From Oceanibaculum indicum P24 (GTDB lineage Bacteria; Pseudomonadota; Alphaproteobacteria; Oceanibaculales; Oceanibaculaceae), in the NCBI RefSeq assembly GCF_000299935.1, contig NZ_AMRL01000026.1, positions 1 to 51,191 of the forward strand: a DNA stretch of 51,191 nt, given 5' to 3'. The notes under the pieces are model-generated. The model searched no databases and was not told the origin of the DNA. It saw only the letters and a program-made list of their open reading frames with translations. Positions within the stretch are counted from its first letter, which is position 1. Every line of letters begins with the position of its first letter. This document shows positions 30,624-30,680 of this stretch, piece by piece. The position numbers were made by a program, and so were the translations under genes.

Positions 30624-30680
30624 TTCAACAAAGTGGTTGACTATCGAAATTGGCCGCTTATATTCAACCGCATGGTTGAA
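30624..30680. promoter_or_regulatory. Promoter and paired operators of the ArsR-AHSA1 genes
   Basis: Two 18-base sites share a 7-4-7 layout: TTCAACA-N4-GGTTGAC at 30624-30641 and the perfect TTCAACC-N4-GGTTGAA at 30663-30680, with starts 39 bases apart. Between and across them lies TTGACT at 30637-30642, a 16-base spacer and TATATT at 30659-30664, each five of six to consensus. Site 1 overlaps the -35 and site 2 overlaps the end of the -10 and the ATG at 30672. Binding at either would block transcription, as expected for ArsR autoregulation. The start point would be at or next to the ATG. Confidence 0.75.

Follow-up and report, generated by a model that had tools for sequence, protein, structure and literature searches.

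A predicted operator centred on the start codon of arsR in Oceanibaculum indicum P24: comparative sequence analysis of an ArsR-SRPBCC operon

The gene arsR of Oceanibaculum indicum P24 begins inside a perfect palindrome, O2, centred on the 5' edge of its start codon. Judged from sequence comparison, it is very likely that the encoded ArsR is an autorepressor binding its own -10/+1/AUG region, with an mRNA predicted to be leaderless and an operator that sets codons 2 to 4. The features are collected in Table 1; positions refer to the window, i.e. the whole analysed stretch of 51,191 nucleotides. The operon consists of two genes, arsR and an SRPBCC gene, in an Oceanibaculum-type genome of 3.95 Mb, for which Oceanibaculum pacificum was the nearest named relative in the search.

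Table 1 Features of the arsR-SRPBCC locus in the window
Feature	Position	Strand	Basis
O1, predicted upstream operator, TTCAACA-AAGT-GGTTGAC, imperfect 7-4-7	30624..30641	+	sequence and close-relative comparison
-35 hexamer TTGACT, formed by the right half-site of O1	30637..30642	+	promoter search
-10 hexamer TATATT, overlaps the left half-site of O2	30659..30664	+	promoter search and close relatives
O2, predicted operator, TTCAACC-GCAT-GGTTGAA, perfect 7-4-7, axis at the 5' edge of the ATG	30663..30680	+	sequence and comparison
Predicted transcription start, A of ATG, leaderless mRNA	30672	+	inferred from the -10 position and the lack of a Shine-Dalgarno site
arsR, ArsR-type winged-helix repressor, 127 aa, N-terminus MVEH	30672..31055	+	HTH_20 2.3e-15, HTH_5 7.1e-13, NF033788, PDB 3f6o 1.1e-20
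Shine-Dalgarno AAGGAG of the SRPBCC gene, 7 nt from the ATG	31039..31044	+	sequence
SRPBCC/AHSA1-domain protein, 179 aa, ATG overlaps the arsR stop (ATGA)	31052..31591	+	AHSA1 6.5e-18

A sequence-only reading had described two copies of TTCAACM-N4-GGTTGAM 39 bases apart, the second including the ATG at 30672. Direct reading confirmed this: the starts of O1 and O2 are 39 bp apart, and the ATG (30672-30674) lies in the second half of O2. The copies had been called matched operators. Both have the 7-4-7 form, but only O2 is perfect with an arm pairing of 7/7, whereas 5/7 pairs are formed in O1. Furthermore, they had been said to flank a promoter close to consensus. The promoter TTGACT-16-TATATT, with a spacer of 16, does hold 10/12 consensus bases, but the operators overlap the hexamers instead of flanking them. 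No second promoter-like site was present in 30100-32100. As claimed, seven bases (30665-30671) separate the -10 from the arsR ATG, and no Shine-Dalgarno-like sequence precedes this ATG; the next gene has AAGGAG. An alternative start in the same frame, ATG 30594, was rejected, since the sequence shared by the relatives begins at ATG 30672. Upstream of it, the close relatives keep the operator/promoter element alone.

In the whole genome the exact pattern TTCAACN5GGTTGA was found only at O1 and O2 (plus the reverse reading of O2). With one mismatch it occurred at 11 other places, which is about the chance level estimated from the pattern length; the single palindromic place among them lies within a NusG-like coding sequence.

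A divergent DUF3088 gene (30235-30624, minus strand) faces O1 with its 5' end. Control of this gene by O1 was rejected as a conserved feature, because DUF3088 adjoins in 2/64 loci, both in Oceanibaculum-like genomes. Behind the SRPBCC gene, at 31617-31719, a long imperfect intergenic palindrome of REP-like type was observed, with 50-nt arms, 72% complementarity and a 3-nt gap. A manganese (yybP-ykoY) riboswitch (31783-31982, plus strand; Rfam RF00080, 47.1 bits) lies directly 5' of a gene for a GDT1-type cation/proton antiporter (about 31989-32567).

The protein belongs to the ArsR/SmtB family according to HTH_5 (48.7 bits, cut-off 22), HTH_20 (56.7 bits, cut-off 27) and NF033788 (78 bits, cut-off 55). 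The alpha-3 CxC metal motif of classical metalloregulators is absent and C73 is the sole cysteine, though a metal site of another type may be present; the family name 'metalloregulator' is a generic label here. For the SdpR autorepressors (NF033789) the score was 51.9 bits and thus below the cut-off of 100. In the predicted structure, residue 47 stands at the start of the recognition helix (46-58). The model shows little structure in the first ten residues (mean pLDDT 67; core about 97), which may thus be free to follow the DNA sequence. The SRPBCC/AHSA1 gene comes right after arsR, as in operons of the ArsR-SRPBCC (Rv2034-Rv2035-like) type, where such a gene or a polyketide_cyc2 gene takes this place. 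An SRPBCC homologue was present in 64/64 close loci.

For the comparison with close relatives, 63 loci were collected by protein similarity, with a query that was partly a peptide at the protein start. They span Rhizobiales, Rhodospirillales, Caulobacter, Xanthomonadales and others, and include Mesorhizobium, Rhizobium, Microvirga, Methylocella and Caulobacter, Roseomonas relatives, and also Xanthomonas, Luteimonas, Dyella, Parahaliea and a Phycisphaerales bin. The search for the motif in relatives and genome, proposed with the sequence-only reading, gave, besides the exact genomic copies O1 and O2, a palindrome with its axis precisely on the 5' edge of the ATG in 61/63 loci. By comparison, a score as high was reached by 11 of the 4634 ATGs elsewhere in the examined loci. 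Within the compared sequences, this conservation excludes a chance origin of the palindrome on the ATG. The distance between the starts of O1 and O2 was 40 in 49 of these 61 relatives, 39 in nine and 41 in two; for the 61st locus, misparsed by the script, a distance of 40 was read by eye. TTGAC(A/T/G/C) stands at the -35 place in nearly all close relatives and the promoter spacer is 17 bp in 49/61. The -10 ends 7 nt before the ATG in 58/61. In a Rhodospirillales MAG the operator was kept at about 1475-1500, while the ATG reads ATA (TTCAACCATATAGTTGAA), either by an assembly error or as an ATA start.

The first codons are unusual in the same loci. Codon 2 was GTT in 61/61 close relatives, a codon that makes up 9.7% of the valine codons in the rest of these genes. 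For codon 4, TTA was used for 36 of 38 leucines, compared with 0.4% of the leucine codons in the rest. According to this anomaly, what keeps these codons in place is the DNA and not the protein.

Since the start-peptide query may have biased the close set, a class-wide set selected by protein similarity and a two-site pattern without the ATG were used as well. The class-wide genome sample yielded 81 homologues with 38-73% identity. Their start was taken as the nearest in-frame ATG, picked blind to palindromes, and a 7-4-7 palindrome was scored at every offset. The axis was at offset 0, the ATG, in 35/81 homologues, compared with a mean of 0.34 per other offset; the second-best offset was -40 (seven homologues), which corresponds to O1. 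In the other 46 distant homologues the axis was not at the ATG, and many of these have operators 5' of a leader. A Shine-Dalgarno-like site was detected in 0/35 homologues with the axis at the ATG and in 6/46 of the others. Together with the conserved -10 position, this supports the leaderless arrangement suggested before. The two-site pattern, in which no ATG was specified, gave six matches in 385 genomes, all with an ATG in the same register, and none with the reversed-pattern control. The short pattern TCAACNNNATGGTTGA is no evidence, as its control matched about as often as the true pattern in 398 genomes of the phylum.

The register could be a by-product of the leaderless arrangement: with the -10 so near the ATG, any operator placed over it would extend into the start codon without special selection. 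Overlap with the -10 requires O2 to span about -9 to +9, and leaderless mRNAs are common in alphaproteobacteria, with 171 in S. meliloti (PMC3616915) and 375 in C. crescentus (PMC4117421). However, the register holds to the single base instead of being spread over several offsets. We regard this explanation as possible but rather unlikely; it is compatible with an autorepressor, as the cause of the register, and is no true contradiction to it.

The letters of the operator vary by subfamily, whereby the encoded starts are MVE, MVK, MVN, MPN and MAI. Among the 35 homologues with the axis at the ATG, CTTAACC...GGTTAAG (MVK), GTTAACC...GGTTAAC (MVN), GTTAGGC...GCCTAAC (MPN) and TATAGCC...GGCTATA (MAI) were found. 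For 82 starts not selected for palindromes, the upstream and the coding arm formed 348 complementary pairs of 574, compared with 218.5 (sd 10.2) for shuffled coding arms, a shuffling that does not remove relatedness. The claim of the sequence-only reading that the same bases constrain both DNA binding and first codons is supported by the GTT and TTA codons as well as by this covariation. The covariation would be equally expected of an RNA hairpin, i.e. of O2 acting in a leadered transcript by translational control; if transcribed, its 7+7 bases would pair with the AUG at the loop. The sole promoter-like site would start transcription at the ATG, though, so that the left arm of O2 would stay untranscribed, and the motif recurs in O1 across the -35. 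Moreover, the O2 hairpin region was not stabler than shuffles (z -0.6) and the half-site letters track the recognition helix of ArsR. A role as RNA is therefore highly improbable.

Residue 47 of this helix was A, N or F in 79/79 genes whose coding base +7 is G (GGTTGA-type) and P in 20/20 genes with A at this base. The association comprises only three phylogenetically independent contrasts, one of them well supported. It is consistent with recognition of the half-sites by ArsR as supporting, not proving, evidence from sequence. On the protein tree, the axis-at-ATG state changed at least 11 times, with three changes forced by well supported branches. The motif might instead be the site of another regulator, with ArsR acting elsewhere. 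Against this, exact sites occur in the genome only at the arsR locus, they travel with ArsR of the window type across orders, and their letters track residue 47 of the encoded ArsR; we consider it very unlikely.

The position of O1 in the wider set depends on the operator class. It was -40 in 16/18 members of the GGTTGA class, about -50 in the CCTAA class and -35 in the GATAA class, and O1 was absent from the GTTAA class. Where present, O1 matches the class of O2 although it lies in untranscribed DNA. Across the sequences compared, O1 is an optional, clade-specific second site, and O2 on the start codon is the constant part. The judgement that an operator in the coding start is unusual needs to be restricted accordingly: within the ArsR-SRPBCC family of the window it is standard, with O2 and not the pair as constant element. 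To our knowledge, operators so placed are unusual for regulators at large.

In the homologues from Burkholderiales, and in many more, operators lie 5' of a leader instead. In two Burkholderiales loci, two operators 19 bp apart form a larger palindrome 5' of arsR (ACCCAAAGGTTGACTGTCAACCTTTGGGT), which covers the -35/-10, with a short leader, and is not on the ATG. A plasmid of Methylophaga thalassica carries the 11-4-11 palindrome TATATTCAACCATATGGTTGAATATA with the ATG inside; no SRPBCC gene is annotated adjacent to it.

For the preferred explanation as an autorepressor, the following mechanism is proposed. RNA polymerase would use TTGACT/TATATT and start at A30672, giving an arsR mRNA without leader. 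An ArsR dimer would bind O2 and, in the clade of the window, O1, as the comparison strongly suggests. With the two-fold axis of O2 between -1 and +1, the bound ArsR would extend over the -10 and the start point as well as codons 1 to 3. From the overlap we infer that ArsR on O1 or O2 would exclude the polymerase, so that the operon would be self-repressed until some signal relieves the repression. The SRPBCC partner hints at a hydrophobic ligand, which is a guess. Translation of arsR would begin at the leaderless start and that of the SRPBCC gene at the strong Shine-Dalgarno site. As the right half of O2 is coding, the specificity of the operator would dictate the N-terminal residues of ArsR, and a change in specificity during evolution would alter the untranscribed left arm and codons 2 and 3 together.

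We lean towards a family rule for a large part of the ArsR-SRPBCC autorepressors: in a leaderless gene the operator axis would be fixed at the transcription start/AUG, specificity would write the N-terminus, and every shift in specificity would remodel the recognition helix, the untranscribed arm and the first codons jointly. A palindrome centred on the ATG would then allow leaderless autorepressors to be recognised, operators to be predicted and start codons to be corrected from sequence alone. The locus is a clean natural case of a single DNA stretch constrained as promoter, operator and coding sequence simultaneously; the cost and the evolution of operator specificity would thus be readable from the first codons.

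In the open literature searched, no account was found in which the operator axis is fixed at the start codon throughout the ArsR-SRPBCC family. We know of no relationship between ArsR and the proteins of lambda cI and Tn1721 tetR, nor of an operator/start-codon register of the window kind in them. Both are classic leaderless repressor mRNAs (cited in PMC3017554), and Cupriavidus has been reported to carry a leaderless arsR (PMC7563307). The C proteins of restriction-modification systems, e.g. C.Csp231I, resemble the ArsR of the window as small autoregulatory DNA-binding proteins with palindromic operators in their own promoter, and leaderless transcripts are common among them. In contrast to ArsR, they belong to an unrelated HTH family, form an activator/repressor loop and have operators 5' of the gene (PMC4824078).

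The operon acuR-acuI-dddL of Rhodobacter sphaeroides has, as in the window, a repressor as first gene, with a leaderless mRNA whose mapped 5' end is exactly at the AUG. The operator overlaps the promoter, the later genes have Shine-Dalgarno sites and the layout is kept in other taxa. The leaderless repressor gene lowers repressor synthesis compared with the downstream genes; the order of a leaderless arsR followed by a Shine-Dalgarno gene recalls this operon. Unlike ArsR, AcuR is of the TetR family, with an 8-6-8 operator over the promoter, which the passages considered do not locate on the coding start (PMC3017554).

Rv2034 of Mycobacterium tuberculosis is the ArsR autorepressor of Rv2034-Rv2035-Rv2036, an overlapping operon that likewise contains a polyketide_cyc2/SRPBCC gene. 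A dimer, it represses itself through the palindrome CCGTAAGT-N4-ACTTACGG, whose 4-bp spacer is that of the window operators. DNase I footprints reach from -30 to +3 and from -26 to +8, near the start codon, and no metal response was found. It differs from the window by a single operator of other sequence, with the palindrome just before the ATG, not centred on it, according to the coordinates of the paper; a leaderless start is not mentioned in the passages considered (PMC3338718). Thus, ArsR-SRPBCC autorepressors and leaderless repressors are already known, and Rv2034 and the leaderless acuR operon are the nearest precedents.
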